Shown here: positions 13,108-42,000 of the stretch, piece after piece
Numbering within the stretch: position 1 is the first letter of the stretch
How the letters are laid out: the number at the start of each line of letters is the position of its first letter
IMG/VR virus record: IMGVR_UViG_3300028786_000010
Location: 1 to 54,499 of that record
Length of the DNA stretch: 54,499 nt
Source: a virus
Reading direction: 5' to 3' (one strand)
Notes under the pieces: generated by a model
Database searches by the model: none
Seen by the model: only the letters and a program-made list of their open reading frames with translations
What the model was told of the DNA's origin: nothing
Position numbers and translations under genes: made by a program

Positions 13108-13607
13108 GACGCCACCGCCTCTGACTCGGCAGCCGGGCTCAGGGTCCTGCCGAACCGGTCCTTGGGCACCGCCGGGTCGATCAGGTCGGCAGCCCAGGCA
13201 ACACCTTCGCGCCGGTACCGCGAGGGCACACTGACTTCGTTGCACCGGTCCCGGATCATCTCGGCGAGATCCTTGGCCGCCTCCCGGTAGACCCGGGCGA
13301 CCTCTGCGCGCATCTCCTTGACCTGCTGCTCGGCCGTCTCGCGACCCATGCGGTCGACGATGGTGTGCCCGTCGCGCACATGATCGGCCTCAGCCTGGGT
13401 GATCAGTCCGCGGCCGTCCGTCAGGCGCTCGTACGGAAAGACCCGTTCGCGGTCACGCTGCTCGTTCGCCGCGCGGTAGCCGAATGTGCGCCGCAAGGCT
13501 TCGGCGTAGCGTGTGGAGTCCGGGCCGTAGAAGTTCTCCTCGTGGATCATCTGATGCATCACTGCGACCAGGCGGTCAGCGATGACATTCCAGTCGACGG
13601 CGGTCAC
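13104..13607 (-). CDS. Hypothetical protein, helical
   Basis: 167 aa from GTG 13607, overlapping the previous stop as GTGA. It is rich in charged helices (DRMGRETAEQQVKEMRAEVARVYREAAKDLAEMIRDRC) and has no cysteine motif beyond one. It precedes WhiB with a four-base overlap. I do not recognise a family. Confidence 0.65.
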   Translation of the reverse strand: MTAVDWNVIADRLVAVMHQMIHEENFYGPDSTRYAEALRRTFGYRAANEQRDRERVFPYERLTDGRGLITQAEADHVRDGHTIVDRMGRETAEQQVKEMRAEVARVYREAAKDLAEMIRDRCNEVSVPSRYRREGVAWAADLIDPAVPKDRFGRTLSPAAESEAVAS

Positions 13608-14464
13608 AGGACACCCCCGGCGGCGGCCATCGTGACCGTGACGCGGATCGGCGTGCCCTTCTCGGCCTTCGCCTTGCGCGGCGCCGGCACCTTCGGGGCG
13701 ACGGTGGGAAGCGGCACGTCCCAGGCCGCGGGCCCGGTCCGGCGGGTGTGCCGGCCCGACTTCACCGCGGCGTCGTACTGCTCGATGCCCCAGGCGATGG
13801 CGTGCAGGTTGTGCAGGAAGTGGTAATCCCAGTCGGTGAGGTTCCACTCCCAGGTGTCCGAGACGACGCCGAGGGTTTCCAGCTCGCGCAGCAGTTCACG
13901 GGCACCGTCTTCGTAACCGGAGCCGATGCCGTAGTGCTGGTGGTCCTCGATCACCTCCCAGATTTCTTCCAGCGTCTTGGGCGCCTCCGGCTGGCGGATG
14001 TCGCCGCGCGGCCACCGCTCCTCGGGCCGGGCGCTGTCCCAGGTGACCTGGTCCAGCTCGTAACGCTGCTGGCGCTGCTCGGCGCCAGTGCGCCAGTCGT
14101 CCATGTGTTCGTCGAGCAACGCCTTGAACGTCGCCTCGCTGTAGACCTTGACCGAGCGGCCGGAGTCGGGCAGTTTCTCGGCCCAGTAGCCGGGGTTGAT
14201 TCCGTAGTTGTACGAGCTGCGGGCCACGCGGAAGAACTGGAACATGTCGGCCATCCGGCGGAAGGTGTGCGCGCCGCGGTCTCCGGTGATGGTGAGCGAG
14301 CCCGGTGCGGTGATCAGTTCGAAGCGGTCGTTCCAGGAGTGCTCGCGCTGCTCGAAGACCAGGTGCCGGTACAGGCCGTGGTCGAGCTTGACGATCATGC
14401 GGTGCTCGGCGACGTCGCGGGCGAAGGCCGTGGCTACCTGGTGCTCGATGTGTGAATCGGTCAT
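13604..14464 (-). CDS. Conserved-looking phage early protein, unknown function
   Basis: 286 aa. Aromatic-rich and acidic, with segments SWNDRFELITAPGSLTITGDRGAHTF, MFQFFRVARSS and WNLTDWDYHFLHNLHAIAWGIEQYD. The C-terminal ~40 residues are Pro/Lys-rich. It has the look of a protein frequent in actinophage early regions, but I know no function for it. ATGA overlap with the previous gene. Confidence 0.65.
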   Translation of the reverse strand: MTDSHIEHQVATAFARDVAEHRMIVKLDHGLYRHLVFEQREHSWNDRFELITAPGSLTITGDRGAHTFRRMADMFQFFRVARSSYNYGINPGYWAEKLPDSGRSVKVYSEATFKALLDEHMDDWRTGAEQRQQRYELDQVTWDSARPEERWPRGDIRQPEAPKTLEEIWEVIEDHQHYGIGSGYEDGARELLRELETLGVVSDTWEWNLTDWDYHFLHNLHAIAWGIEQYDAAVKSGRHTRRTGPAAWDVPLPTVAPKVPAPRKAKAEKGTPIRVTVTMAAAGGVL

Positions 14465-19787: not shown

Positions 19788-20297
19788 ATGAGACAATCAA
19801 CTGTGTATCAGGCAGGATACGTAACACCCCTGATACGTGACGAGGTATCTGAGCTGCACTATCGTGTTGGCATGACGGACGTCGGTCGGCGGGATGCTGC
19901 GCCTTCGAGCAGGTTCGCCGAACTCATCCAGTTGACCCGCGAACAGCGCGGGTGGACCCAGGACGAGCTGGCCGACCGTGCCGGCGTGTCCCGTCCGACG
20001 ATCAACCGCTACGAGCAGGCCAAGACCCGCACCCCGGATCCGGAGACCGCGCGCCGCATCTTCGTCGCCCTGAAGCTCGACCCGCGCCGCATCCCCGTCC
20101 TGCTCGGGTACGTCACCGAGGAGGAGATGGGCCTCCCGCCGGAGCCGTCGCGGACCTTCCACGCCACCACCGAAGACGCGATCGCCATCCTCGAGGACCC
20201 GGCCGTCGACAGCCGCGTCAAAGCCGAGTGGGTCAGGTACCTGCAGATCCGCACGGCCGATGACGACGACGCCAGGCCTGGCCGCGCGATCGGCTGA
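19788..20297 (+). CDS. Phage repressor, XRE family (start 19788 or 19872)
   Basis: 169 aa from ATG 19788, which has AGGGGG upstream, or 141 aa from ATG 19872. The XRE helix-turn-helix is FAELIQLTREQRGWTQDELADRAGVSRPTINRYEQAKTRTPDPETARRI, followed by a ~60-residue C-terminal part without a peptidase motif. I favour 19872: a promoter (GTGACG, 17 bp, TATCGT) ends seven bases before it and the operator sites 19805-19851 would then be upstream of the gene rather than inside it. It lies next to integrase and divergent to the Cro-like gene, so it is the likely lysogeny repressor. The lack of a LexA-type protease domain argues against RecA-driven self-cleavage. Confidence 0.75.
   Translation: MRQSTVYQAGYVTPLIRDEVSELHYRVGMTDVGRRDAAPSSRFAELIQLTREQRGWTQDELADRAGVSRPTINRYEQAKTRTPDPETARRIFVALKLDPRRIPVLLGYVTEEEMGLPPEPSRTFHATTEDAIAILEDPAVDSRVKAEWVRYLQIRTADDDDARPGRAIG
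19805..19871 (+). promoter_or_regulatory. Repressor promoter with clustered operators
   Basis: Sites related to the operator half GTATCAG occur at 19805-19811, 19815-19820 (GGATAC), 19830-19836 (CTGATAC) and 19845-19851 (GTATCTG). The promoter -35 GTGACG (19837-19842) and -10 TATCGT (19860-19865), 17 bp apart, overlap them, which suggests autoregulation and leaderless start at 19872. Confidence 0.55.
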
Positions 20298-20539: not shown

Positions 20540-21478
20540 ATGACCAGCCGCCGCGGAGCACTGCCCGACAACCTCGGCGCGTTCGCGCCCTGGCTCGACT
20601 CGTTCGACCTGGATCTGATCTCGCGTGGGCGCTCCGACCGCACACGCGAGATGTACCTCGACGCGGTCCGCTGGTTCGCCGCCTGGCTCACCCGGGAGCA
20701 CAAGGCGAAGACCTGGGACAAGGTCGGACGGGACCAGCTGCGGGCGTTCTTCGCCCACATGACCGAGCTGGGGTACCAGCAGTCGTACCGCAACAACGTC
20801 GCGCGCTGCCTGCAGGCGTACTTCAAGTGGTGGTCGGCCGAGGAAGACCTGCCCAACCCCTACGCCACGTTCACCCCGCCGGCGGCGCCGAGATTCGGTG
20901 TGCACCCGGACAAGCTGCTGGACACCGGCGACCTGGGCAGATTGTTGAAGGACGCCGAGACCGGCAGGGACTTCGAATCACGCCGTGACGCCGCCATGCT
21001 GCGCCTGTTCGCGAGCACCGGCTGCAGGCTGGCTGAGATCGCCGGCCTGGACGTGTCCCGGGTCGACGTGAAGGCGCGCACCGCGGTCGTCACCGGCAAG
21101 GGCGACAAGACGCGAATGGTTCGCTTCGACGCAAAGACCGCGCTTGCCGTGGACCGCTACCTGCGCGTTCGCGCCACGCACCCGGCGGCCGACCTGCCGG
21201 CCCTGTTCATCGGCGTGCGGCGGCGGGTCCGGATGACCGCATCCGGGATGCGCCGAGCCCTGGTCCGCCGTGCTCAGCGGCTGGGGATCAAGCTGCATCC
21301 GCACATGCTCAGGCACACGTTCGCCCACCTGTGGCTGGATGCCGGCGGCGCCGAGGGCGACTTGATGGAGTTGATGGGCTGGGAGTCCCCGCAGATGCTG
21401 CGGCACTACGGCGCGTCCGCCCGTGGCGCCCGGGCCCGGCGCGCGTACGACCGGGTGAATGTGATGGGTGACCTCTGA
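20540..21478 (+). CDS. int: Tyrosine integrase
   Basis: 312 aa. N-terminal SAM-like core-binding domain (residues ~15-110), then the catalytic domain with R163 (TGCRLAEI), K187 (TGKGDKTR), H255-x-x-R258 (HMLRHTF), W281 and nucleophile Y290 (MLRHYG). It is the XerC/D-like size class and lacks a long arm-binding domain. It follows the attP core by about 100 bp on the same strand. Together with the Xis-like protein at 24203 it would integrate and excise the phage at a tRNA-Val gene. Confidence 0.93.
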   Translation: MTSRRGALPDNLGAFAPWLDSFDLDLISRGRSDRTREMYLDAVRWFAAWLTREHKAKTWDKVGRDQLRAFFAHMTELGYQQSYRNNVARCLQAYFKWWSAEEDLPNPYATFTPPAAPRFGVHPDKLLDTGDLGRLLKDAETGRDFESRRDAAMLRLFASTGCRLAEIAGLDVSRVDVKARTAVVTGKGDKTRMVRFDAKTALAVDRYLRVRATHPAADLPALFIGVRRRVRMTASGMRRALVRRAQRLGIKLHPHMLRHTFAHLWLDAGGAEGDLMELMGWESPQMLRHYGASARGARARRAYDRVNVMGDL

Positions 21479-22992: not shown

Positions 22993-24135
22993 TCAGAACG
23001 ACTCGTAAGCGGCACGCACGGCGTCGCGCACCGAGCCGGGCACGCGCTCACCGGCTACCATTCGCCACACCTGCCCGAGCAGCTCTGGCACCCGCGCCGA
23101 CCGGGCGGATCCGGCGTGCCGCATGAGGTCGTCGACGATGGCCGGGACCTCGCGCCACGCGTGTCCGGCGACCGCGTTGTGCAGGAGCATGGCGCGGAAC
23201 AGGACCTGATCGCGGCCCTGAACGTCCGGCAGCCATTCGACGCCACGGTGTGCCCAGTCGACGGCGTCGCGCGTGCCGGCCCGGGACAGGATGACCGCCT
23301 TGTGGATGGCCATCTCAGAGTCGTGGATCCAGTACGTCAGCCCGTCGTCGGTGGATGGCGACACGGTGAGCATGTGCTCGGCCCGGTCCCAGGCGTCCAG
23401 GGCGTCGGAGTAGGCGCCGAGGCCGGACAGCGCCCGCGCCCGGCGCACCTGGACCATCGCCAGTACACGCGGGTTGTCCGGTGCCTCGGCGAGGATCCGC
23501 TCGGCATACGCGAGGGCGTCACCGTGCCGACCGGCGTGCTCGGACACCATCGACAGATGGCTGAGCAGGAACCGGTGCAGGCGGGTGTCGCCTGCCAGAT
23601 CGGCCAGGGCGAGCGCCTCGAGGGCGATGGCCCGGGACTGGTCGCGCTCGGTCGCGTCGGCTGCGATCCAGGCGGCTGCGGTGCCGAGGTCGGCAACGGC
23701 TGACCGGACGTCCGCCGTACCGCCGGCGATGGCCAGTTGGTCGGCGGCTACGCGGAAGGCGCGGGTGGCGACTGGCACGAGCCCGTCCGAGCCCTGCAGC
23801 GTGTCCAGGGCGACCAGGTGGGCGGTGGTGGCGCGCGCCCGCGCTTCCTCGGCGTCTCCAAGGCCGCGCGGGGAGATCTCCGCCGCGGGCATCGCCTCCC
23901 GCCTGGACAGTTCGACCAGCTCGCCGTCCGCGCGCAGGGCGGTGTCGAGCGCGGCAACAAGGCTGGGGCCGGGTATGGGCCGGGTGCCGTTGGCCACCTT
24001 GTTCAGGTAGCCCGGATCGGCATTTACGGCGGCTCCCAGGGTCCGGAAGCTGCGGCCGTCGGCATGCATGAGTTCGGTCATGCATGCAGCGAACAGGCCG
24101 CGCCCCCGGATCTGGGTGTTGTCAGCGTCGCTCAC
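22993..24135 (-). CDS. XRE-TPR transcriptional regulator
   Basis: 380 aa from GTG 24135. N-terminal XRE helix-turn-helix (RSFRTLGAAVNADPGYLNKVANGTRPIPGPSLVAALDTAL), then about 280 residues of helical repeats of TPR type (HGDALAYAERILAEAPDNPRVLAMVQVRRARALSGLG, YSDALDAWDRAEHML). This architecture is common among actinomycete chromosomal regulators and resembles RRNPP peptide sensors (family knowledge). Its start codon sits inside an inverted repeat, which suggests autorepression. No signalling-peptide gene is obvious nearby. Confidence 0.8.
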   Translation of the reverse strand: MSDADNTQIRGRGLFAACMTELMHADGRSFRTLGAAVNADPGYLNKVANGTRPIPGPSLVAALDTALRADGELVELSRREAMPAAEISPRGLGDAEEARARATTAHLVALDTLQGSDGLVPVATRAFRVAADQLAIAGGTADVRSAVADLGTAAAWIAADATERDQSRAIALEALALADLAGDTRLHRFLLSHLSMVSEHAGRHGDALAYAERILAEAPDNPRVLAMVQVRRARALSGLGAYSDALDAWDRAEHMLTVSPSTDDGLTYWIHDSEMAIHKAVILSRAGTRDAVDWAHRGVEWLPDVQGRDQVLFRAMLLHNAVAGHAWREVPAIVDDLMRHAGSARSARVPELLGQVWRMVAGERVPGSVRDAVRAAYESF

Positions 24136-24644: not shown

Positions 24645-24950
24645 GTGAACATTCTTGCACCTGAAACAACCTGCCCCAGCTGGTGCAGCGGAGGTCACAT
24701 CCCCGCTGACAACGGCGTCGTGCACATCAGCGTCGAGCAGGTCCTGGCCGTGTCGGCCGGCCGCGAGACGGGCACCGTCTACGTCTCCGTCGAGCAGGTC
24801 GAGCAGCCGGGCGCCCCGATGGACGCGCCGAGCCTGCGGATCGAGGGCGCCGGGTCGAGGCCGATGACGCTCGCTCAGGCGATGCACCTGGCTCACGTCC
24901 TACAGGCGACGGTCTTCGCTGCCCTGACCGGCGGGCAGGTGTCGCGATGA
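24645..24950 (+). CDS. DUF6907-like small protein, first gene of the rightward operon
   Basis: 101 aa from GTG 24645, with CGGAGG upstream. The N-terminus has CPSWCSGGH, the C-P-x-W-C-x3-H signature of a family common in actinomycete mobile elements and chromosomes. The rest is beta-rich and ends in a helix (MTLAQAMHLAHVLQATVFAAL). Function of the family is not established. Overlaps the next start by ATGA. Confidence 0.7.
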   Translation: MNILAPETTCPSWCSGGHIPADNGVVHISVEQVLAVSAGRETGTVYVSVEQVEQPGAPMDAPSLRIEGAGSRPMTLAQAMHLAHVLQATVFAALTGGQVSR

Positions 24951-25132
24951 AGCGCATCTCATCCTCGTTCGCCTGCGCAAAGCCGCAGCGCGACAGCCGG
25001 ACCGAGACCCCGACAGACGACGTCACCACCTGGGCCCGTCGCCTGATCGCTGACCCGGCCCGTTACGGCGCGACGGAGCGCGAGCGCCAGATCGTCGCCG
25101 ACCTGCTCGCCCAGGCGGAGGTGTCCCGCTGA
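24947..25132 (+). CDS. Small hypothetical protein
   Basis: 61 aa, ATGA-coupled to the gene before and sharing one base with the next. A short helical part (WARRLIADPARYGATERERQIVADLLAQAEVS) is the only visible structure. Confidence 0.6.
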   Translation: MKRISSSFACAKPQRDSRTETPTDDVTTWARRLIADPARYGATERERQIVADLLAQAEVSR

Positions 25133-25329
25133 TGGCCGCGAAGCGCAAGGACGACGGGATCTCGCAGCGCACCGAGGACGCCATCGTCAACAAGATCGCA
25201 GAGCGGCTGGCGGAGAAGGGCCTGCTCGGCGACATGCTGAAGAACGCTCGCAAGGACCGCAAGGTCATCGAGGACAGCCTGGAGCGTCACGCCGCCCGCC
25301 AGCGCGCTGCCGGAAAGCCCGGGTGGTGA
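25132..25329 (+). CDS. Small charged helical protein
   Basis: 65 aa, strongly charged and probably all-helical (EDAIVNKIAERLAEKGLLGDMLKNARKDRK). Overlaps neighbours by one and seven bases. No family recognised. Confidence 0.6.
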   Translation: MAAKRKDDGISQRTEDAIVNKIAERLAEKGLLGDMLKNARKDRKVIEDSLERHAARQRAAGKPGW

Positions 25330-25505
25330 CGGTGAGCCTCCTGCTGCTGAACGTCCTGCTGATGACCGTCGGCCCGTTCCTGGTGGTGGCGCCGCTGGCG
25401 CTGGCCGCGCGCCTGTCCTGCCCGTCCGGCCACCGCGTACGCCGGCCGTTCCTTCGGATGCCGTCCTTGCGGCTACCGACGATCCGACTCGAGGTGTCGT
25501 GGTGA
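25323..25505 (+). CDS. Small single-TM protein
   Basis: 60 aa from GTG 25323 (a second GTG follows at 25326). One TM segment (LLLLNVLLMTVGPFLVVAPLALAA) and a basic C-terminal tail in the cytoplasm. Part of the small-membrane-protein set of the operon. Confidence 0.6.
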   Translation: MVTVSLLLLNVLLMTVGPFLVVAPLALAARLSCPSGHRVRRPFLRMPSLRLPTIRLEVSW

Positions 25506-25768
25506 CCTCCCCCGCGTACCTGACGGTTGTCATTCGGGCCGAGGCGCAGGCCGCACCGCAACTGTTCTACGCGGTGCGCAGTTCCCGCCCCGCCGTATCG
25601 CCGGAGGACGGCTGCAGCAGCTGCGGCGCCGATGTGTGTGACGTCGTGGTCCGCGGCATCGAGGGCTACTGCTGGTCGTGCATCGACACCTGGCCGGCCA
25701 CCGCAGCGGGCCCGCTCGACCAGCTCGGCGTCAACGTTCTCCCCGGACACGAAAGGAGCGTCCGATGA
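25499..25768 (+). CDS. Small protein with a zinc-binding motif
   Basis: 89 aa from GTG 25499, overlapping the gene before. CSSCGADVCDVV and GYCWSCIDTW provide five cysteines in two groups, typical of a small zinc finger. The N-terminus is beta-like. ATGA overlap with the next gene. Confidence 0.6.
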   Translation: MVTSPAYLTVVIRAEAQAAPQLFYAVRSSRPAVSPEDGCSSCGADVCDVVVRGIEGYCWSCIDTWPATAAGPLDQLGVNVLPGHERSVR

Positions 25769-26049
25769 CCAAGAAGTTCAAGGTAACGATCGAGCTACCC
25801 AAGGTCGGCCGTAAGCGCCTGATCGGCGCGGGTGTCCTGTCCGCGACGGCGACGACGCTGTGGATCGCCGCGCCGGCGTATCTGCCGTGGGCGGTGGTGT
25901 CGCCGGAGCATGTGCTCGAGGGCTTCGCCATCCCGTTCGGTGTCGGCGTCGTGGCGTTGCTGTTCATGGAGTACCGGATCGCCCGCGACCTGGAGAAGCC
26001 CGCCGAGCGGCCGTCGCGGTCGGAGCGCGAGAAGGCGGACGCACGATGA
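25765..26049 (+). CDS. Small two-TM protein
   Basis: 94 aa with AAGGAG upstream. Hydrophobic segments IGAGVLSATATTLWIAAPAYL and VLEGFAIPFGVGVVALLFMEY, basic N-terminus and charged C-terminus. It is coupled by ATGA to the DUF2637/SpdB-like gene, so it may be a partner in the same membrane complex. Confidence 0.65.
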   Translation: MTKKFKVTIELPKVGRKRLIGAGVLSATATTLWIAAPAYLPWAVVSPEHVLEGFAIPFGVGVVALLFMEYRIARDLEKPAERPSRSEREKADAR

Positions 26050-26804
26050 GGCGCCCCAAGCAGGTCGACCCTGCATCGCGGTTGAAGCGGATCCGCTGGG
26101 TGGTCCGGGCTGTGCTGGTCCTGGGGGTCGGTGCGTCGATCGCGGGGAACGTGCTGCACGCCTCGGGCACGATCATCAGCCAGATCATCGCCGGGTGGGC
26201 GCCGACCGCGCTGCTGCTGACCATCGAACTGATCTCCCGGGTGCCGGTGCATCACAGGTCTCTGGCGCTTGCCCGGTGGGCGGCGACGGCGCTGATCGCG
26301 GGAATCGCGGCGTGGGTGTCGTACTGGCACATGGCGGCGGTGGCGTCGCGGTACGGCGAGACGGGTGCATCTCCGTACCTGCTGCCGTTGAGCGTGGACG
26401 GTCTGGTGATCGTCGCGTCCATCTGCCTGGTGGAGCTCGGCGGACGGATTCGCGACGCGGAACTGTCCACCGATGTGTCCGCCCCGGTGTCTTCTGCCGG
26501 GTCCGCGGCCCCGGGTGAAGTTGATCCACCTCTGCCGATCTTCGACCACCCGCGGCCGATCGGTCCGCTGCCGCAGCCGGTGGACAGTTTGACCACCCCG
26601 GTTGTCCAGGCTCGGAAGCCGCAGCCGTCCAGTCGTGAGCGGGTGGAGAAGGCGCATCGGCGCACCCCGGCGGCGACCAACGATCAGCTGGCGGAGCGCC
26701 TCAATCTGTCCACCAAGACCGTCCAGCGGTGGCGGCCGAAGCCTGACCCGGAGCCGACCAAGGTCAACGGCAATGCCCCGGTGCTCGAGGACGCGCCGGT
26801 CTGA
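26046..26804 (+). CDS. DUF2637/SpdB-like membrane protein with C-terminal HTH
   Basis: 252 aa. Four hydrophobic segments in the first 140 residues (VVRAVLVLGVGASIAGNVLHA, IIAGWAPTALLLTIELISRV, ALARWAATALIAGIAAWVSYWHM, PLSVDGLVIVASICLVELGGRI) match the DUF2637 family, linked to spread proteins of actinomycete conjugative elements. Residues ~205-235 (RRTPAATNDQLAERLNLSTKTVQRW) form a helix-turn-helix. Known Spd proteins act with TraB to spread plasmid DNA between mycelial compartments. The presence of TraB downstream supports that role here. Confidence 0.8.
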   Translation: MRRPKQVDPASRLKRIRWVVRAVLVLGVGASIAGNVLHASGTIISQIIAGWAPTALLLTIELISRVPVHHRSLALARWAATALIAGIAAWVSYWHMAAVASRYGETGASPYLLPLSVDGLVIVASICLVELGGRIRDAELSTDVSAPVSSAGSAAPGEVDPPLPIFDHPRPIGPLPQPVDSLTTPVVQARKPQPSSRERVEKAHRRTPAATNDQLAERLNLSTKTVQRWRPKPDPEPTKVNGNAPVLEDAPV

Positions 26805-26810
26805 GATAGC

Positions 26811-26842
26811 GCGACGGCCGAGCATGCAGGCCCGGCCGTCGC
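26811..26842. terminator. Perfect 10-bp intercistronic hairpin
   Basis: GCGACGGCCG (26811-26820) pairs with CGGCCGTCGC (26833-26842), loop 12 bases, directly after the SpdB-like gene. It probably lowers or protects the upstream message. The ATG at 26824 lies in its loop and is rejected as a start. Confidence 0.5.
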
Positions 26843-26892
26843 ATCAACCCAAGGCCGCCGGCAAGCGGCCCGTACTTCAGGAGATGACCAGG

Positions 26893-27048
26893 ATGTCAGA
26901 TCGGCAGCTGCGCGACCAGTACGACGAGGTTCGTGAGCGCAACCGGAAGCAGCGAGAGGCCACGATGCGCCAGGCGGCGCAGATCTCGGCCGAGAACAAC
27001 CGCCGGCACGCGGCGCAGGCAGCCGGCCGCGGCAAGCGGTCCATCTAA
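26893..27048 (+). CDS. Tiny basic protein 1
   Basis: 51 aa from ATG 26893, with CAGGAG nine bases upstream. Charged helix (RQLRDQYDEVRERNRKQREATMRQAAQ) and a basic end (GRGKRSI). First of a series of tiny basic proteins before TraB. Confidence 0.55.
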   Translation: MSDRQLRDQYDEVRERNRKQREATMRQAAQISAENNRRHAAQAAGRGKRSI

Positions 27049-27081
27049 CAGCCTGACCCCAGGCAGAACAGGAGAAACAGC

Positions 27082-27234
27082 ATGGCGAAGAACGAGGGCA
27101 GGAAGGTCGTCCACTCGCAGCTGCCGCCTCTGCGGACGGAGGCCGAGAAGAAGGCTTTCCACGCGGCTAATGAGGCCGCGCACAAGAAGGCTCACTGGCG
27201 CATCTATGGCAAGGCCAAGGAGGAGAAGCGCTGA
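27082..27234 (+). CDS. Tiny basic protein 2
   Basis: 50 aa from ATG 27082, with CAGGAGAAAC upstream. Lys-rich helix (AEKKAFHAANEAAHKKAHW) and the end KAKEEKR. Its stop and the next start share a base (TGATG). Confidence 0.55.
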   Translation: MAKNEGRKVVHSQLPPLRTEAEKKAFHAANEAAHKKAHWRIYGKAKEEKR

Positions 27235-27386
27235 TGGCGAAGCACACGACGGAGCTGGGCGACGACGGCCGCCTGCATACCTACAAGTCGACCCGGGCGC
27301 GGCGCAGGAGCGAGGCGCAGCTGATCGGGTGGACGCCCGGCCCGGCGACGCCGTGGCAGAGGTTTAAGCGGAAAGCGGTCGGCTGA
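27234..27386 (+). CDS. Tiny basic protein 3
   Basis: 50 aa, starting at the ATG that overlaps the stop of the previous gene. Basic (KSTRARRRSEAQL, FKRKAVG). No family recognised. One-base overlap with the next. Confidence 0.55.
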   Translation: MAKHTTELGDDGRLHTYKSTRARRRSEAQLIGWTPGPATPWQRFKRKAVG

Positions 27387-27586
27387 TGGGCCTGTTCAGC
27401 AAGGGATCGAAGACGCCGAGCGGCGAAGCGTACCGGGGCGGCTGCTCCGAGCACGACATGTACGGCCCGGCGCGCAAGACGTTCAAGGCCGCGAACAAGG
27501 ACACGTACGGCCATGGAGATCGGATGCATGGGTCGAAAACGCACTCCGGCGGCTATGTCGAGAGTCTCGGAAAGGAGAAGCGCTGA
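27386..27586 (+). CDS. Tiny basic protein 4
   Basis: 66 aa, Gly/Lys-rich (LFSKGSKTPSGEAYRGGC, KTFKAANKDTYGHGDR) with one cysteine and His residues, ending KEKR. One-base overlaps on both sides show translational coupling. Confidence 0.55.
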   Translation: MGLFSKGSKTPSGEAYRGGCSEHDMYGPARKTFKAANKDTYGHGDRMHGSKTHSGGYVESLGKEKR

Positions 27587-27771
27587 TGGCCTGGATCAGC
27601 AAGGAGCAGCAGAAACGCGACCACCGCGGGCTGCGGGACGTGTGTGCGGCCGACGGTCGTAAGGGCTCGGACAAGGACCCGCTCGGGCTTGCCGACACCG
27701 GCTCCCGGGTCCACAAACGGCACTTCAAGGACCCGGCGGACGGGTTCTACGGCTGCCAGCAAAAGAAGTAG
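27586..27771 (+). CDS. Tiny basic protein 5
   Basis: 61 aa, basic (KEQQKRDHRGLRDVCAADGRKGSDKD) with two cysteines. Coupled to the gene before by one base; 18 bases separate it from the next. Confidence 0.55.
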   Translation: MAWISKEQQKRDHRGLRDVCAADGRKGSDKDPLGLADTGSRVHKRHFKDPADGFYGCQQKK

Positions 27772-27789
27772 CGAGAGGACGGGCCAGCG

Positions 27790-27981
27790 ATGGCAACCAA
27801 GAAGAGTGATCGGAACTCGGACGAGAACACCGCCCGAATGAGTCGGCTCATGCGCAAGAAGGGTTCCTACGGCCGGATCGTGTCGCAGATGCCAGCCGAT
27901 CAGCGCAAGCAGACCCATGACGGGGAGCGTCGCTGGGCGGCCAAGTCGGTCTGCCAGAAGTTGAAGGAACTCGGCAAGTAG
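27790..27981 (+). CDS. Tiny basic protein 6
   Basis: 63 aa, basic (ATKKSDRNSDENTARMSRLMRKKGSYG, WAAKSVCQKLKELGK). GAGAGG lies upstream. Last of the series before a large hairpin and the TraB-like gene. Confidence 0.55.
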   Translation: MATKKSDRNSDENTARMSRLMRKKGSYGRIVSQMPADQRKQTHDGERRWAAKSVCQKLKELGK

Positions 27982-27989
27982 TTCGAGCA

Positions 27990-28031
27990 GGGGCGCGGCC
28001 GGGTCCACCCCCGGACCTGTGGCCGCGCCCC
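27990..28031. terminator. Perfect 11-bp hairpin upstream of the TraB-like gene
   Basis: GGGGCGCGGCC (27990-28000) pairs with GGCCGCGCCCC (28021-28031). The loop can form an inner GGTCC/GGACC stem. It separates the tiny-protein cluster from the translocase gene and could set their relative expression. Confidence 0.5.
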
Positions 28032-28060
28032 CATCGCCCTGTGAGAGGAGCGGCACCAGC

Positions 28061-30115
28061 ATGACAGACACGCTGCCCGAGGCGTACGAGCCGGGACCGC
28101 CGCGGCCGGACGACGCCGAGTCGTACGTGGAAGAGCCCACGGTCCGGGTAGCGGTCACGTCGCGGCCCGAGACTCCCACCGTCTACGCGACGGTTACTCA
28201 ACTGGCGGAGAGCAAGCGCCGGCCGATCATCCCCGGCTGGATGCGCACTGCTGACGCGCGCAAGACCTACTTCAAGCAGGTGGCTGGCCTGGTCGGATAC
28301 ACCGTGGCGTTGCAGCTGTGGTTGTCGCCCCAGTACTTGGCCAAGACCGCGGTGTACGCGCCGTGGGGCATGCTGAAGCTGCTGGGCCGGCAGATCCGCT
28401 GGGCGGCGCACCCTGAGCTGACCAGCCTGATGCAGGCGGCTGCCGGCAAGAACGACCTGGATCACGGCCGCGGGTATGCCGCAGATGTGGCAGCAGCGCG
28501 CAAGGCCCGTTTTCTGGGTCTCGGCGCCGAGCTGGTCGCTGTCGCTGTCGCCGTGCTCGCGCTCAGGTTGCTCGCCCCTTGGTGGGCGCAATGGCTGGTC
28601 ATCGCGGTCGCCCTGCCAGTGTTCGCCCGAGTCGGCCGCCCGGTCGGCCAGCCGATTATCCAGCACGTGACGATCGGCAAGCGGTTCACCCGCCTCACCC
28701 AGGAGCAGGTCCGAGATGCCGTGGTGGCGTTGCGGCTGACCGGCTTGAAGAGCCCGGGTGATATCTCCTTTCCGCCGCCTGGTGTCCACGCGGATGGTCC
28801 GGGCTGGATGGCCCGTTTCGAGCTGCCGCCGGGCCTGATCGCCGCGGACGTGCTGGAGAAGCGGGACCGGTTGTCCGGTGCGCTGCGGCTGCCGATCGAT
28901 CAGGTGTGGCCGGAGGTCGGGCCGGAGCACCTGGCGCAGGTGGACCTGTGGGTCGGGTTCAAGCCGGCGTCGCAGATGGGTGACCCGAAGTGGGCACTGT
29001 CCAGCCCCAACGCTGTCACCAGCATCTTCGAGCCGAACCCGTTCGCCACCGACGCCCGCGGCCGGGCGATCGACGTCATCCTGTTCGAGCGCAACATCCT
29101 GATGGGTGGCCAGCCGGGCGCCGGCAAGAGCTTCGGCGCGCGGACGTTCGCGACGATCGCGGGGCTGGACCCGACATGCGAACTGAAGATCGCCGAGTTC
29201 AAGGGCGTCGGAGACTTCCTGGACATGGCGCCGCTGTGCACCGACTACGCCTGCGGGGTCGACGACGAGGCATTCGACATCGGCGAGGCCATCATCGACT
29301 GGGCCCTCGCCGAGTGCGAGCGGCGCGGCGCGCGGATCAAGAAGCTGCGGCTGAACGGCATCGCGCCTGACGGGAAGATCACCCCTGAGTTGGCTGCTCA
29401 GAAGGGTCTGGGCCTGCACCCGGTGTTCATCCTGATCGACGAGTTCCACGAGCTGCTGATGAACCGCAAGGGGGTGGCGGAGAAGTGTGAGCGGGTCATC
29501 CGCCGCGGCCGGGCGCTGGGCATCATCTTCGTGCTGGCCACGCAGATCCCGGACGCGAACACCATTCCCACCTCGATCACGAAGTGCGTGTCGGTGCGCG
29601 TGTGCATGTCGGTGGCGGACTGGCAGTCCAACGACCAGATCCTCGGCACCGGCGCCTACAAGCGGGGCCACAGCGCCACCATGTACCGCCCGGGTTTCGA
29701 CGCTGGCTGGGGCGTCATGCAGGGCCTGGTCCGCGACGGGCAGACCGGCAAGACGTACTTCCCGGACAAAGAGACCCGCGCGGCGATCGTCGAGCGGATG
29801 CGCGCCCTACGCGGCGGAGTGGTCGGCGACCAGGGTGAGCGGATCAAGGCACGGGACATGCTGGCCGACGCTCGTGCTGTCCTGCTGCCCGGTGAGGCCG
29901 GCGTGCCGTGGGGCGTCCTGGCGGAGCGGCTCGCCGGCCTGGCGCCGGAGACGTACGCGGGGATCACGGCGGACATGGTCCGGGAGGCGCTGAAGCGGTA
30001 CGACGTGCCCACCCAGGACGTCAAGGTGAAGGTCAACGGCGAGTGGACGACCGTCAAGGGCATGCGCCGCACAGCACTTGAGGCGGCGGAGGCCAAGCGT
30101 GCAATCGAAGACTGA
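28061..30115 (+). CDS. TraB/FtsK-SpoIIIE-like DNA translocase
   Basis: 684 aa from ATG 28061, with GAGAGGAG upstream. A disordered acidic N-terminus, a membrane-near region with hydrophobic segments at ~77-90 and 153-190, then a RecA-type motor with Walker A GGQPGAGKSF (349-358) and Walker B FILIDE (456-461). The ~70-residue C-terminus (PETYAGITADMVREALKRYDV) could be a winged helix for DNA recognition. In actinomycete conjugation one such protein forms a hexameric channel and moves double-stranded DNA (known). Size, membrane segments and the SpdB-like neighbour favour a TraB-type role over cell division FtsK. No relaxase is present, as expected for this system. Confidence 0.85.
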   Translation: MTDTLPEAYEPGPPRPDDAESYVEEPTVRVAVTSRPETPTVYATVTQLAESKRRPIIPGWMRTADARKTYFKQVAGLVGYTVALQLWLSPQYLAKTAVYAPWGMLKLLGRQIRWAAHPELTSLMQAAAGKNDLDHGRGYAADVAAARKARFLGLGAELVAVAVAVLALRLLAPWWAQWLVIAVALPVFARVGRPVGQPIIQHVTIGKRFTRLTQEQVRDAVVALRLTGLKSPGDISFPPPGVHADGPGWMARFELPPGLIAADVLEKRDRLSGALRLPIDQVWPEVGPEHLAQVDLWVGFKPASQMGDPKWALSSPNAVTSIFEPNPFATDARGRAIDVILFERNILMGGQPGAGKSFGARTFATIAGLDPTCELKIAEFKGVGDFLDMAPLCTDYACGVDDEAFDIGEAIIDWALAECERRGARIKKLRLNGIAPDGKITPELAAQKGLGLHPVFILIDEFHELLMNRKGVAEKCERVIRRGRALGIIFVLATQIPDANTIPTSITKCVSVRVCMSVADWQSNDQILGTGAYKRGHSATMYRPGFDAGWGVMQGLVRDGQTGKTYFPDKETRAAIVERMRALRGGVVGDQGERIKARDMLADARAVLLPGEAGVPWGVLAERLAGLAPETYAGITADMVREALKRYDVPTQDVKVKVNGEWTTVKGMRRTALEAAEAKRAIED

Positions 30116-30125
30116 TATGTCGCGG

Positions 30126-30150
30126 CCGGGGGTCCCCATGAAACCCCCGG
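30126..30150. terminator. Hairpin after the TraB-like gene
   Basis: CCGGGGGT (30126-30133) pairs with ACCCCCGG (30143-30150), nine-base loop, eleven bases after the stop. A second, less GC-rich inverted repeat ATTTCGTG/CACGAAAT (30256-30277) precedes the HNH gene and may be an operator. The 200-bp gap contains no gene. Confidence 0.5.
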
Positions 30151-30317
30151 ATCAGGCCGTTTTCAGGGGTCTGCAGGGCACGCCGCGCCACGCAACAGGG
30201 GGCTGTTTTCCCAGCTCAGCCCATGTAGCTGGCTTTGGCGCGGATCCGCGACAAGATTTCGTGCCGCGACACGAAATTTCGGGGCTGGTTGGTAGATCAA
30301 ACAGAGGGGTGGGGAAG

Positions 30318-30710
30318 ATGAACATCGATCAGATCGGTGATCTGCGGGCACAGGCAAAGATTTCGATCAACCCTCATTCTGGTTGCTGGGAGTGGACAGG
30401 TGCCGTCGGAAAGGACGGCTATGGGCAGGTGCGTCGAGATGGCCGAGTTCAGCGATCGCACCGTTACATCTACGAGCGGCTCGTGGGCCCAATCGGAGTC
30501 AATGCCCGGCAGTTGGATCACCTGTGCCGGGTACGGCACTGCGTGAATCCGAAACATCTTGAGCCCGTGACGCCTCAACAGAACGTGCGCCGGGGGCTGG
30601 CAGCAATCACCGCCCCGCTACCCCCTGAACTTCACCAGAGTCTGGCGGACCTGCTGGAGAAGGTTTACCAACGGGGTGTCCTCGACGGCCTTCGGCAGGC
30701 GCTCGGATGA
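30318..30710 (+). CDS. HNH endonuclease, homing type
   Basis: 130 aa from ATG 30318, with GGGGAAG upstream. HNH motif: WEWTG, RSHRYIYERLVG, LDHLCRVRHCVNPKHLEPVTPQQNVRRG, the HNH_3 type. The last 40 residues are a helical tail. It sits in the rightward operon and its stop overlaps the next start by ATGA. It is related in its core to the HNH protein at 44752-45333. Codon use is less GC-rich than its neighbours, a sign of recent arrival. Confidence 0.82.
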   Translation: MNIDQIGDLRAQAKISINPHSGCWEWTGAVGKDGYGQVRRDGRVQRSHRYIYERLVGPIGVNARQLDHLCRVRHCVNPKHLEPVTPQQNVRRGLAAITAPLPPELHQSLADLLEKVYQRGVLDGLRQALG

Positions 30711-30955
30711 CCATCGGAATACTGATCGGCTGGGCGCTCGCCGCGGGCGTCATCGGGCTCGTCTGGCATCTGGTCGCGTGCGCGGTCTACCCGTTCGCGT
30801 CGTGTGGCAAGTGCGGCGGCTCGGGCAAGCGCCGATCACCGTCGGGGAAGAACCACGGAAGGTGCCGGCGGTGCAAGGGCCACGGCGAGCGGGTGCGGTT
30901 GGGCCGGCGGGCGTGGACGAAGCTCGGCGCCGCGAAGAAGAGTCTGGTCGACTGA
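30707..30955 (+). CDS. Small membrane protein with DnaJ-type zinc motif
   Basis: 82 aa. One TM segment (IGILIGWALAAGVIGLVWHLVACAVYPF), then CGKCGGSGK and CRRCKGHGE, two CxxCxGxG halves as in DnaJ zinc centres. Small proteins of this build occur with transfer genes in actinomycetes. Its stop overlaps the left arm of the operator of the next gene. Confidence 0.65.
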   Translation: MTIGILIGWALAAGVIGLVWHLVACAVYPFASCGKCGGSGKRRSPSGKNHGRCRRCKGHGERVRLGRRAWTKLGAAKKSLVD

Positions 30956-31020
30956 ATTTCCGGTACCGCTTATTGACGCCAGACTGCACCGTCGGGCAGA
31001 ATAAGCGGTACCGGAAATTC
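30954..31020. promoter_or_regulatory. Promoter held between arms of a perfect 21-bp inverted repeat
   Basis: The left arm 30954-30974 and right arm 31000-31020 are exact complements, 25 bp apart; each contains the palindrome CGGTACCG. The -35-like TTGACG (30973-30978) begins at the edge of the left arm and the -10-like CAGAAT (30997-31002) runs into the right arm. The layout suggests two operators that close the promoter of the ribbon-helix-helix gene downstream. Confidence 0.65.
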
Positions 31021-31038
31021 ACTGAGAGGGCGCAGATC

Positions 31039-31476
31039 ATGAGCATCATCAAGCTGATGGCAGGCCAGTTCGCCGACGACTCCACCGTCAGTGAAGAAGA
31101 GATCTACGAGGCCAACCGAACGGCGGGCAGCTTCAACACCGAAACCGCCGAATGGTGGGCCGCGACCGACGGCACCACCGACCGGGTGTGGCGTACACCA
31201 TCCGGTCGGTGGGTCTACACCAGCAAGCACCGCGACTGCTACCTCACCATCGCGCAGGCCCGCGAATGGCTGGCCGCCCACGGCCACAGCGACGTCATCG
31301 TCAAATACATCGACCGTGAGCAGGATGGCCCCGGACGTCCGGAGATCGGCCCGGAAATCAAGTTCCGGGTGCCCGAGCAGGTTCGCGACGCCATCGACCA
31401 GATGGCCCGAGAGAACGGCGTTACCCGCGCCGACCAGCTCCGCATGATCGTGATGGACGTCGTTCCGCTCGGCTAA
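31039..31476 (+). CDS. Ribbon-helix-helix DNA-binding protein
   Basis: 145 aa from ATG 31039, preceded by GAGAGGG. The C-terminal 45 residues (EIKFRVPEQVRDAIDQMARENGVTRADQLRMIVMD) fit an Arc/CopG ribbon-helix-helix. The N-terminal 95 residues (WWAATDGTTDRVWRTPSGRWVYTSKHRDCYLTIAQAREWLAAHG) form a separate domain of unknown role. The inverted repeat at its promoter makes autoregulation likely. It ends the rightward operon at a strong convergent terminator. Confidence 0.75.
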   Translation: MSIIKLMAGQFADDSTVSEEEIYEANRTAGSFNTETAEWWAATDGTTDRVWRTPSGRWVYTSKHRDCYLTIAQAREWLAAHGHSDVIVKYIDREQDGPGRPEIGPEIKFRVPEQVRDAIDQMARENGVTRADQLRMIVMDVVPLG

Positions 31477-31605: not shown

Positions 31606-31953
31606 CTACGCCTGATGTGCGCCTGTGGCGCTTACGGGCGCGGTGACCTGGGTTCGGATGAACGCGGCCGCGGCGGCGCCGACGAACGACATGATCGCGG
31701 CCTGGCCTTCGGCGCTGATGTGCAGGCCGAATCCGACGGCGAGCGCGAGCAGCGCCTGGGCGAGGCCGAGCAGGGCTGCGACCTGACCGTCGCGCTTCAC
31801 CCAGACGGCGACGATGAGGCCGGCGACTGCGGTGGCGCCGGCGTTGAGCCAGGCCTGGTGGTCGGCGTCGAGGTGGATGACGAAGGCGCCGAACAGGCGA
31901 GCGGCGGTGGCGAAGACGGTCAGCCAGAGCGCCGGGTCGCGGGAGAGTCTCAT
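31606..31953 (-). CDS. Holin-like protein, probably 3-4 TM
   Basis: 115 aa from ATG 31953, with GGAGCCCC upstream. Hydrophobic segments: ALWLTVFATAARLFGAFVIHL, LNAGATAVAGLIVAVWV, ALLGLAQALLALAVGFGLHI and AIMSFVGAAAAAFIRTQV. Size and topology resemble holins of actinophages that lie after the lysin gene. It is the last late gene and is separated from the lysin by four small genes. It shares an intergenic region with a CTATAG array. Confidence 0.7.
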   Translation of the reverse strand: MRLSRDPALWLTVFATAARLFGAFVIHLDADHQAWLNAGATAVAGLIVAVWVKRDGQVAALLGLAQALLALAVGFGLHISAEGQAAIMSFVGAAAAAFIRTQVTAPVSATGAHQA

Positions 31954-37658: not shown

Positions 37659-39091
37659 GACGCCGCCGGACGGAAGCCACCGAGATAGCGGGGGTAATAG
37701 CTGCACGTGAGCACGTGGGTCGCGGTGACGGAGTCGCTCGTGCCGGCCGACGCCACGCCGGTGCCGAGGTCGCGGACGAAGAAGACGCGGTTGGCGCGAC
37801 CGGGCGTGATCATCAGTCCTCCGCCCGCGATCTCGATGGTCTCCGTCGTGCGGATGTAGCCGGTCGTGTCGAGGCAGTACGCGGCCGGACGGGCGCCACC
37901 CTCAGCGATGTAGATGTCGGTCGAGAACGCCTGCAGCGTCGGCCACTTGACGAATTCCAGGCGGTCGTCGGCGGGCATGAACAACAACAAGTCCATGTCG
38001 AAGGTGCCGGTGCCGGAGTTGCGGCGCACGTACACCGCAAGGAACGTGCCCTGCACGGCCAGCTCGACGCCGGACAGGCCGTCGGTCACCGGGTCATAGC
38101 CTGCGGGGAACTGGATCAGGCCGAGGTCCAGGTACTTGATTTGCACATCGCCGGGCACGCGCACGATGTCGTTGGAGATGACCGGCGAGCTGGTACCCCA
38201 CTGCAGTTGAACGTCGATCGAATCGGAAGCTGTGTTCTGCCGACACCGCAGGAAAACCCGGTACGTGCCCCGGTAGTCGTTCGAACTCCCCGACGGCCAC
38301 GGGTTGATCGACAGGCGCTGCTGGCCCGACGGCGTGCCGAACGTGCATCTGGAGTAGTTGTTGCCGCTGCCCGAGAATGAGGCGCTGTTGGCCTGCGTCG
38401 TCGTGTCCGTGCCCTGCGTCATGGCCTCGGCCTGCAGGAAGAACGGGACGTTCGCCGGGGTGCCGCGGCGGCGGACAGCCAAGCCGGAACGCAGCCGGCC
38501 CGTCGCGCCCAGACTGCCGGTGCCGTTGGTGATGGCGACCGTCAGCGGCGTCTCGACGTCGCCCTTGGGGCTGGCGATGTCCAAGAACATCCCGTTGCTG
38601 CCGGCGGCCGGATTGTTGGTGACGGTGACCGGCGACAAGGTCTCCTTCAAGCCGAGCGCGAACGGCTCGGCCAGCAGCGTGACAACGAGCTCGCGGCCGT
38701 TCGGTGTGAACGTGACCGAGTCGGGCCCGCTGCGATACGTCCGGAAGAACACCGGCGCCGACGTGCCTGCCTGGTAGCGCAAGATGTTCGTCGGCCGGTC
38801 CAGTTCCCGCACCAGTAGTTGCAGCTGAGCGGCGGCGTTGTCCGGGCTCATGAACGCGCCGTTGCTCATCGGCTGCAGGACCAGCACGATCGTGCGATTG
38901 TCGTACGAGGCGCTGGTCGGGGTACCGCCGTCAGCGAGCAGCGTCGACGGGATCGACCGCTTCAGCGGCGGCGGATCGAAGCGGGTGCCGTCGCGCAGGT
39001 TGAACGGGCCCTTGGTGCCGCCGGACATGTCGAGGCGCACCGTCGGGCTGGCCGCGATCGAGTCGACGAACGCCAGGTAGTGCTTCTCCAT
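37655..39091 (-). CDS. Distal tail protein (Dit-like)
   Basis: 478 aa, starting at the ATG that shares a base with the tape-measure stop. The N-terminal ~200 residues match the siphophage Dit pattern (FNLRDGTRFDPPP, ILRYQAGTSAPVFFRTYRSGPDSVTF, ELVVTLLAEPFALGLKET). An inserted domain (residues ~210-400) with beta-sandwich appearance may bind cell-wall sugars. Order tape measure, Dit, Tal is the norm. Confidence 0.78.
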   Translation of the reverse strand: MEKHYLAFVDSIAASPTVRLDMSGGTKGPFNLRDGTRFDPPPLKRSIPSTLLADGGTPTSASYDNRTIVLVLQPMSNGAFMSPDNAAAQLQLLVRELDRPTNILRYQAGTSAPVFFRTYRSGPDSVTFTPNGRELVVTLLAEPFALGLKETLSPVTVTNNPAAGSNGMFLDIASPKGDVETPLTVAITNGTGSLGATGRLRSGLAVRRRGTPANVPFFLQAEAMTQGTDTTTQANSASFSGSGNNYSRCTFGTPSGQQRLSINPWPSGSSNDYRGTYRVFLRCRQNTASDSIDVQLQWGTSSPVISNDIVRVPGDVQIKYLDLGLIQFPAGYDPVTDGLSGVELAVQGTFLAVYVRRNSGTGTFDMDLLLFMPADDRLEFVKWPTLQAFSTDIYIAEGGARPAAYCLDTTGYIRTTETIEIAGGGLMITPGRANRVFFVRDLGTGVASAGTSDSVTATHVLTCSYYPRYLGGFRPAAS

Positions 39092-42000
39092 CAGAAGGAC
39101 CCCCGCGCGTATTGGTCGATGCGGGCGCCCAGCTCACGGTTCACCGCGGAAGCGATCTGGCCGGGCGTCAGATTCGAGCCGTTGATGTTGATGACCGGCG
39201 CGAGGGTCACGGTGGTCGTCGAGCCGCCGCCGGCGGCACCGCCGAGGTGGACGCCGGGCAGCACCGTCTCCGGGCGGCCACCCTCGCCGAATGAGTAGGT
39301 GTCGCCGGACACTCCGATGCCGAAGACCGGTTCACGGATGACGCCGCCGTCGCGCATCGCGACGTGATCGTGCGCGTTGCCGCCCGCGAAGTTGTGCTGC
39401 TGCCAGACCGCACCGGTGTACGTGTGCCTCCGGCCGTTAAGGATGTTCAAATCCTGATATGGGGAGATGAACTCCTTGATCCGGCTCTTGTAACGAAGGT
39501 TGAACCACTCGGCCAGCGGCCGGCTGGGCGGGAAGTCCACGGCCCGGCCGACTGCGTGATAGCTACGGTTGCCGGTCAAGGTAACCGCACCGGGCCGGTA
39601 GTCCGACAGCACCGCCATGCCGGGGAATGCGGCCCGCACGGCGGACTCGATCCACCGATACGTCATCCCGCTCGGCGGACCGACGGCGCCGGCAACCTCT
39701 TTCGGCGACGGGATCCGGGTCATCGACGCGGTGGTCGGGAAGGGCCACGTCACGCGGCCGCCGCGGTCGTAGCCGGGGGTCACTTCGCCAGTGAGGTTCA
39801 TCTTGTCGAGCAGGCCCGGGTTCTCCCGCTCGATCTTGCGGCGCGAGCTCTTCTTGATGACGTACTCGTCGGCGTGCACGATGCCCGCAGGGTCGAGCGT
39901 GTCGCCCGGTCCGGTCCAGCCGCCGGCGTCGAAGCCGAACATGCGCCGCGCCGGGGCGGGCAGCTGGGTGCCCTTCTTGAGCGCCGATTGCACCTGTGAC
40001 AGCAGGGCGAGCTTCTGCCCGGTGGGCTCGTAGTTGGTGAGGGTGATCCTGGTGGTCACATCGTCGGGCATCTTCGCGTACGCCGCGATGAGCTTGTCGA
40101 CCTGACCCTTGGTCAGACCGGACTGGCGCAGCGTCTTGCGCAGGTCGCCGATGTACGTGTCGTACGTCTTCGACGCTTCCTTGACCGAGCTGGTCTCCTC
40201 GTACTTGGCCTGCGCCGCCTTGGCGGCCGCCTCGGCGGCGTTACCGACCGCGATGCGGTTCTTCAGGGCCGCCTCGGAGTTGCCGTCGATGGCGTTCTTG
40301 TTGGTCTTGAACGACTTGGCCACATCGTCGATGGTGGTCTTCGCGGCGAGCGCAGCCTTGTCGCTGGACAACATCGCACCGTGCAACTGGTTCCACACGT
40401 CGGTCAGGGTCTGCCCGGCCTGGATCGCTGCGTCGAGGGCACTGGTCATCGTCTTGGCGTTGGCCTCGCTGGTACCGAAGCCTTTCGCCAGCCCGGTGTT
40501 CGCCGTCGCGGCGCTCTGGCTGGCGGCCGCGTAGTCGGGCAGCATCCCGGTGAGGATTTTGAACTGATCGGCGGTCAGCGTCCCGGACGCGGCCAGCTGG
40601 TCCAGGAAGATCTTCGCCTGGTTGGCGCCGCCCGACTTGACCAGCCCGGCCAGGGCGGTGTCGAGGTCCTTGATGTCCTGCACGGCCTGCGGGTCGACCG
40701 GGTTCCAGTTCGCGGTCGCCTCCGCGGCCGTCAGCCCCGCGGCATAGTCGGCCTGCGCCTTGGCAAGGTCTGCCATGCCCTTGGTCACCGAGGAGGCGTC
40801 CTGGCCGATCTTCTGCAGCTGGGCGCCGTAGTGGCTGGCCAGCTCACCGGTGGCCTGGCCAGTGGCGGCGAAATCCTTGATCGAGGTGGTCAGCGCGTCG
40901 ATGTCGGCCTTGACCGGGGCGTGCTTCTTCTGAACCCAGTCACCGAACGCCTTGAAGCCCTCGAACAGCACGCCGACGCCGAGGCCGGCCACGCCGAGCG
41001 TACCGGCGACCTTGCCAATCCCGCTGAGGGCCGACACCGCGGACACGCCGGCCGGGCCCATCTTGGTGAGCTCGCCGATGAAATCGGTGACGGTCTTGCG
41101 TGCTTTCAGCAGACCGGTCGCACCGAGGAGGCCCGCACCCGACAGAGCCGTCACCCAGACGACGCTCTGCTGCAGCCAGCCGGGCAGATCCGCAAAACCG
41201 TTCACCAAGCCGTTCGCCGCCTGGGTAAGGCTACGCAGACCGCCGTTTGCGCCGGAGCCCGCCTGGATGGCCAGGGTCTCGATGGATCCCTTGAGCCGCT
41301 CCAGGTCACCGGCCAAGTTGTCCGTCTTGATCTTCGCGGTGTCGGCCGCGTAGCCCGAGTCGTTCGTCTTGTCGATCCAGGTCTGAATGCCCGCCGCACC
41401 CTGCTGATAGAGCACACTCGCGGCGCGGGTGGCGTCCGAACCGAAGATCTGCGCCAGCGCGTGGGCCCGCTCCGCCTGGGTCAGCCCACCCAGCTTGTCC
41501 TTCAGCTGGCCGGCCAGCGCGGTGATCCCGATGAAGCCGCCCTGCGCGTCGTAGGCGGAGATACCCAGCTCGTCCATCAGGTCCTGGGTTTTGCCTGACG
41601 GGGCCTGCAACGCCTGCAACATCGTCTTGAAGCTGGTGCCCGCGTCGGAGCCGGTCAGGCCGGCACTCGCGAACGCGGCCAGCGTGCCCGTGGTGTCCTC
41701 GATGGTCAGGCCGGTCCCGGCGGCGACCAGCCCGGCCTGGTTCAGGGCCGCGCTCATGTCAGCGACCGATCCCTGCGCCTTGCCTGCGCCCGCGGCGAGC
41801 AGATCCGCGACGTGCGGCAGATCTTTGCCCTGCAGCTTGAACTGCGTCATCGCCGACGCGGCCGTCTCGGCGGCATCACCGACTGCGATCTGGCCGGCCG
41901 CGGCGAGATCGAGGGCGCCCTTGAGGCCACCACCGAGGATGTCCGCCGTGGACACGCCGGCCTTGGACAGTTCCTCGATGCCCTTGCCCGCCTCGGTGGC

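Follow-up and report, generated by a model that had tools for sequence, protein, structure and literature searches.

How does a phage come to carry a machine of the kind used in actinomycete conjugation, and what might it do with it? The question is raised by IMG/VR virus record IMGVR_UViG_3300028786_000010 (54,499 bases; the window, below, is the whole of this stretch), whose gene content is that of a temperate tailed phage and in which a first-pass annotation had singled out a transfer module at 24645-31476. The cassette is indeed there, all of it on the plus strand, with a DUF2637 protein, small membrane proteins, tiny basic proteins and a TraB/FtsK-like ATPase; what that annotation had passed over inside the same stretch was a repeat array, a gene for a protein of 82 residues (orf82) and an HNH gene. 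The explanation we favour, and hold to be reasonably probable, is that a TraB/clt cassette of the type found in actinomycete integrative and conjugative elements (AICEs) was taken up by a temperate actinophage, in which its task would be to carry phage double-stranded DNA (dsDNA) through septa or from one mycelium to another. That the cassette is of AICE type is well supported; that the phage may spread both as virions and by TraB transfer is plausible.

A translocase of the TraB type

Conjugative pump or cell-division FtsK? By profile and tree the protein falls on the TraB side. Pfam's FtsK_SpoIIIE model finds it with E 2.2e-4 and 21.2 bits, under the curated cut-off of 24, PHROGs assigns it to an FtsK/SpoIIIE-like family (1.1e-19), and its Walker A and Walker B motifs are intact. 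The translocase profile matches TraB of plasmid pSVH1 along almost all of its length: the alignment takes in 415 columns (E 8.7e-42), extends to the N- and C-terminal parts and scores 213 bits, as against 24-40 bits for four chromosomal FtsK rows whose matches are partial. On a tree of the motor (81 selected rows, a quick method, long branches on the plasmid references) the chromosomal FtsK rows form a separate group, and the window pairs with the related phage L005 inside a group of 13 that takes in phage, unassigned viral and AICE-like loci, each of these two groups being marked 100 on that quick tree. Tree and profile scores thus reject an identity as cell-division FtsK, and the clustering comparison proposed in the first-pass annotation comes out on the side of TraB.

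The predicted structure agrees. Hydropathy places a membrane stretch at residues 148-189, and an AlphaFold2 (AF2) model made with 52 relatives (mean pLDDT, the model's own confidence measure, 86.7) has long N-terminal helices. Its motor (208-597) superposes on FtsK 2iut with Z 31.6 and a root-mean-square deviation (rmsd) of 3.4 over 349 residues, and on the conjugation protein TcpA 6o1x with Z 26.8 and rmsd 6.1 over 319 residues. Modelled alone, the C-terminal domain is again a winged helix (AF2, pLDDT 86.8); the solved folds closest to it are mostly DNA-binding winged helices, at Z of at most 7.3, which is below the level of certainty, and with this domain by itself Foldseek gave no match at E 0.001 or better. 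Fold and profile together confirm the call of a TraB/FtsK-like translocase.

The repeats after the gene

If the protein is a TraB, is there an address for it to read? TraB binding of 8-bp clt repeats has been reviewed (PMC12857230), and the clt of pWTY27, which spans the 3' end of the tra gene and 159 bp beyond it, contains 7-bp repeats to which the protein binds (PMC3583192). Such a repeat array, which the first-pass annotation had suggested looking for, is present in the window directly 3' of the gene, the place where clt lies in pSVH1 and pWTY27. It was found by a scan for clustered 8-mers with the word TGTCGCGG/CCGCGACA taken from the related phages L005 and L087, where that word clusters just after TraB. 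The 200 bp after the window's TraB hold three exact copies, any other 200 bp holding at most one, and the 54.5 kb record has only two further exact copies; one-mismatch copies stand at 30183 and 30236. In L005, L006 and L087 the copies after TraB number 5-6 (five in L006), as against the three exact ones and near-copies of the window.

The arrangement recurs widely. At least four copies of one 7-mer stand right after TraB at 76 of 117 loci, as against 312 of 11,205 background windows that reach this number, the same test at 13 other offsets giving 0-7 loci per offset. L088 and L007 are one contig and both are counted, in the 117 as in the 120 loci used below; the test was repeated with TraB clustered at 70% identity, and 25 of 47 then had an array, against 0-2 at eight other offsets. 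In the first 200 bp of the phage rows, 11 of 24 have at least four copies and 20 at least three. Repeat words differ by TraB clade, which does not count as covariation with the C-end of TraB, since gene end and array are physically linked. The words of the window's group resemble variants of KGTNRCGG, and in most cases this pattern shows enrichment after TraB (only moderately in L010, L090 and the window; not in L092, pPaSha2 or pSVH1). As a positive control, the scan recovers GACCCGGA four times right after traB of pSVH1, and this we take to be the known repeat word of that plasmid. With pSVH1 TraB the window protein thus shares an FtsK motor, a profile match into both terminal parts and repeats right 3' of the gene; it differs in being only 27% identical, in having another repeat word with inverted units, in lacking a relative of SpdB2 by sequence and in lying in a phage. 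The clt-like array is new evidence for the AICE-type nature of the cassette.

Might the array rather be an operator, an origin iteron or an RNA hairpin of the operon? We place this on the unlikely side. Some of the repeats are inverted, the strand folds somewhat better than its shuffles (z -2.15 in the window, -3.38 in L005, -4.61 in L087), and arrays of iterons are also found close to replication genes, as in pWTY27 (PMC3583192). Yet the position is that of clt in both plasmids, no terminator- or promoter-like site was found within 29900-30800, and with just two other exact copies in the record the array is not a regulon-wide operator.

Relatives in phages and in AICEs

By its genes the window encodes a temperate tailed phage, with terminase, portal, protease, capsid, tape measure, integrase and holin. 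To that extent the earlier statement that the structural genes are complete stands, the portal and protease genes also lying on the minus strand among them; an endolysin was not identified among the window's genes. The plus-strand cassette sits between integrase and holin, with a divergent regulator at its left. By published criteria an AICE has Int, Tra and an AICE Rep (RepSA, RepAM or Prim-Pol/RepPP) (PMC3218068); the window has Int and Tra, its replication protein being a phage-type primase-polymerase fusion. Within the gene for the latter, at 4118-4327, there are dense repeats of about 10-11 bp, GAACCCGCCTG-like, with up to eight copies of CCCGCCTG.

The cassette is not unique to this phage, and the search of related genomes that had been proposed finds it both in phages and in AICEs. 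There are 33 TraB-like loci in viral contigs of IMG/VR, a collection of records pre-selected as viral. Large terminase is present in 23 of 36 TraB records (the window, pPaSha2 and 34 from IMG/VR), the gap between terminase and TraB in 21 IMG/VR records being 2.2-36.3 kb; one further record, L101, has a strong portal match, and at least 24 records carry such a TraB beside phage packaging genes. TraB was the query that brought up the phage relatives, so its presence in them is no proof of anything on its own. From the genome contigs the best 80 of 363 passing loci were used, and 50 of these 80 entered a check for terminase in which 48 host genomes (that of L009 not among them) were searched. Terminase lay on the TraB contig within 50 kb clearly in G038 and G039 and doubtfully in G072 (46 kb), so for most of the chromosomal TraB copies searched there is no terminase close by.

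On the motor tree phage and AICE copies are intermingled, and 61 labelled rows require eight changes of label; the cassette therefore probably moved repeatedly between phage and AICE contexts, or arose by repeated fusion. The AICE labels were checked by gene content for L008, L009, L013 and, in part, L011. L009 fits the published definition, having integrase, Prim-Pol, DUF3631 Rep and Tra, plus GntR. AICEs hold the closest relatives of the window's TraB outside phages. In the AICE-like loci L009-L013 (Nocardioides, Catelliglobosispora, Catellatospora, Dactylosporangium) TraB is 44-47% identical to that of the window, with arrays at the same place and orf82 downstream; the differences are that no terminase was found nearby (in the genomes searched, L009 excepted) and that the window phage has a phage primase/polymerase instead. 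Among the relatives with named hosts the genera are mainly mycelial (Nonomuraea, Micromonospora, Streptomyces, Frankia and others). In Dactylosporangium roseum (L049) there are two TraB-like genes, 3923-6175 and 12053-14305, with identical scores and about 8 kb apart, which suggests a tandem element. TraB-like genes have also been reported in Mycolicibacterium plasmids (PMC8190616).

How the two kinds of element could meet is illustrated by Pilimelia terevasa (L008). In its stretch 66-126 kb, window-like portal and capsid genes stand at about 80-83 kb and an AICE-like element, which has a TraB resembling the window's as well as DUF2637 and Prim-Pol, begins at about 106 kb; past it comes a tRNA-Ser. 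This locus was at one time taken for a TraB phage and after gene calling was relabelled as an AICE near a prophage; the motor tree still has it as phage, the later recount of label changes does not. From the order of its genes such a layout is a possible route, or birthplace, of phage-AICE fusions. An empty-site comparison found no matching integrase in G119 and G120. Could the fusion in the window be an artefact, an assembly chimera of phage and AICE? It is a metagenome-type virus record with no end repeats noted, but the same join occurs in the independent records G001 and G003, in a Microtetraspora contig (phage genes, then GntR, HD and XRE regulators, DUF6907, TraB and orf82) and in the circular pPaSha2, and an artefact is scarcely credible.

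pPaSha2 (L152, CP052773.1, Pseudonocardia alni) is a 41.9-kb circular molecule, deposited as a plasmid, that has integrase, DUF2637, TraB-like protein, orf82, holin, terminase, portal and capsid in one circle; its TraB is 32% identical and on another branch of the tree, and its repeats, TGTAGCG, come after orf82. The match to its portal is split in two, the integrase annotation covers no more than 555 bases, and the accessible portion of PMC8928166 yielded no mention of pPaSha2. A plasmid deposit with phage genes and a TraB module lends something to a reading in which the pump is a helper for segregation or development, keeping excised or plasmid-like phage DNA in tips or spores, or disturbing septation, with no transfer between mycelia. 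Actinophages with homologues of ftsK, parB and ssgA have been reported and read as carrying tools for manipulating development (PMC10117723; in the portion of PMC7650747 available no passage on FtsK was found), and Streptomyces phage Gilgamesh, like the window, has a phage-borne FtsK-family ATPase. The latter is distant, however, with 27.5% identity over 42% of the query, no orf82 found adjacent and a maximum of three copies of any 7-mer after the gene. The window protein groups with TraB, not FtsK, and has the clt-like array and AICE-type neighbours; movement within a mycelium would, moreover, use the same machine. In Streptomyces plasmids TraB and Spd proteins serve both septal passage and inter-mycelial transfer (PMC4170104, PMC12857230). 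We consider a segregation role without transfer rather unlikely.

Is the cassette still in use? Compared with L005 (in the part fetched), TraB at 76% identity is the highest of seven shared genes, the others being at 47-54%, and its ratio of non-synonymous to synonymous change (dN/dS) is 0.27 as against 0.55-0.77; these ratios are simple counts at high GC content and good for ranking only. Several results weigh on the other side of an AICE-type transfer cassette at work in this phage. Compared with L087, TraB is at 57% with dN/dS 0.61, no better conserved than other genes. Of 49 records retrieved with the phage's capsid, polymerase or tail genes as queries, one has a TraB-like gene; the set holds many fragments (15 exceed 35 kb), and from it L178, L186 and L187 (short), L199-L207 (nine weak capsid hits) and L213 (the same as G003, with TraB present) are excluded; the module is hence accessory in this phage lineage, and the idea of TraB as a core gene of the lineage is not supported. 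Without the word from the relatives the window's three copies are ordinary, 171 of 1,078 other windows reaching as many; beside L005, L006 and L087 the array looks partly decayed; its partial inversion departs from the mainly direct repeats of pSVH1; and 13 of the 24 phage rows have fewer than four copies in the first 200 bp. Tra of pIJ101 gave no profile match and is long-branched on the tree. Finally, neither SpdB2 of pSVH1 nor SpdB of pIJ101 has a Pfam match at 0.01, hence no DUF2637, and BLASTP of the window's DUF2637 protein against pSVH1 SpdB2 gives E 0.13. Kinship of DUF2637 with SpdB by homology was accordingly dropped, leaving the earlier label 'SpdB-like' with context as its sole ground; spd genes being highly diverse (PMC4170104), the missing sequence kinship weighs little against an Spd function.

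Does this add up to a relic, acquired by recombination with an AICE next to it and since fallen out of use? The Pilimelia contig with its prophage and AICE-like element shows that such fusions can arise, and accessory status, partial decay of the array and the HNH gene that has entered the cassette would all suit it. Against it, the reading frames of TraB, DUF2637 and orf82 are intact, as are the motor motifs, TraB is the most conserved gene in the comparison with L005, and several separate phage branches keep it. A disused remnant seems to us quite improbable, and a functioning transfer cassette of AICE type the better account.

The rest of the cassette and what it may do

The features are collected in Table 1. 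Relatives of the divergent regulator lie upstream of TraB in 12 other loci, on the opposite strand in nine of them as in the window, and the Microtetraspora contig likewise has its DUF6907 gene upstream of TraB. Iterative search finds relatives of DUF2637 upstream of TraB at 26 of 120 loci, and the Pfam model detects the family in 15 of 36 records; for the five tiny basic open reading frames (ORFs) no relatives were found at E 0.01 in the 15 loci searched. L005 and L006 lack the HNH gene, their TraB, array and orf82 standing side by side; in the window's copy it has entered between array and orf82. At 103 of 120 loci orf82 is the gene that comes immediately after TraB, whether the element is an AICE or a phage; it gives only weak matches to the DnaJ zinc centre, and we know of no existing name for it.

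Table 1. Features of the window, in order of position (aa, amino acids; pI, isoelectric point; HTH, helix-turn-helix; RHH, ribbon-helix-helix)
Feature	Position	Strand	Remarks
Primase/polymerase, 1607 aa	1920-6743		Phage-type per PHROGs
Repressor	19872-20297	+	
Tyrosine integrase (phage)	20540-21478	+	Left of cassette; Phage_integrase 3.2e-26
XRE/TPR regulator	22993-24135	-	Divergent, left edge of cassette; HTH_31 9.8e-9
DUF6907 protein	24645-24950	+	Pfam 8.6e-9
Two small ORFs, 61 and 65 aa	24947-25132, 25132-25329	+	pI 9.2 and 10.0
94-aa membrane protein	25765-26049	+	Hydrophobic segment residues 49-72; no Pfam family match
DUF2637 membrane protein, C-terminal HTH	26043-26804	+	Pfam 1.8e-9; 3 hydrophobic regions
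Five tiny basic ORFs (51, 50, 66, 61, 63 aa)	26893-27981	+	pI 9.6-11.4
TraB-type dsDNA translocase, 684 aa	28061-30115	+	N-terminal membrane helices, FtsK motor, C-terminal winged helix
Candidate clt unit TGTCGCGG	30118-30125	+	
Candidate clt unit CCGCGACA	30246-30253	-	Inverted
Candidate clt unit CCGCGACA	30264-30271	-	Inverted
HNH endonuclease	about 30318-30710	+	Between array and orf82; HNH_3 1.3e-7
orf82, 82 aa	30707-30955	+	One membrane helix and CxxCxGxG zinc-ribbon; hydrophobic 1-33
RHH protein	31039-31476	+	Right edge, cassette membership unsure; Arc/RHH hits below cut-off
Holin	31606-31953	-	Right neighbour of cassette; phrog_9752 8.9e-21
Tape measure	39091-42315	-	
Capsid	48315-49592	-	
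Terminase large	52357-53961	-	
Terminase small	53903-54406	-	

How might these parts work together? One may envisage a temperate phage of an actinomycete, probably of mycelial growth form, that carries between integrase and holin an AICE-type cassette of regulator, membrane proteins, TraB, clt-like array and zinc-ribbon membrane protein. TraB would form an FtsK-like hexamer embedded in the membrane and recognise, by way of its C-terminal winged helix, the TGTCGCGG array beside its own gene. It would pump circular phage dsDNA across the septal walls that divide the mycelium and, where two mycelia touch, from one into the other. The probable time of use is while the phage DNA exists in excised or circular form and lysis is not under way.

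Tentatively, and with some doubt, the case can be widened to a recurrent class of phage-AICE chimeras in mycelial actinomycetes. These would spread as virions and also, from a phage-borne clt, as TraB-pumped circular dsDNA, through septa and between mycelia; a mycelium could hence be colonised without lysis, the host chromosome perhaps being mobilised as well, and the array of TraB recognition sequences (TRS) 3' of traB would be a general, readable address tag of AICEs and of such phages.

In the open-licence literature no description of an AICE-type TraB or clt in a phage was found. Phage spread and TraB conjugation in mycelial bacteria have been studied as separate routes, and phages that carry a TraB and, next to it, a clt-like array would link the two. 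For the archetype AICE, pSAM2, PMC9513070 notes that no clt had been described; the array rule predicts a candidate clt for dozens of AICEs, and orf82 is a new candidate part of the transfer machine. As for the phages themselves, those with such a cassette could explain how phage crosses the septa of a multicellular host.

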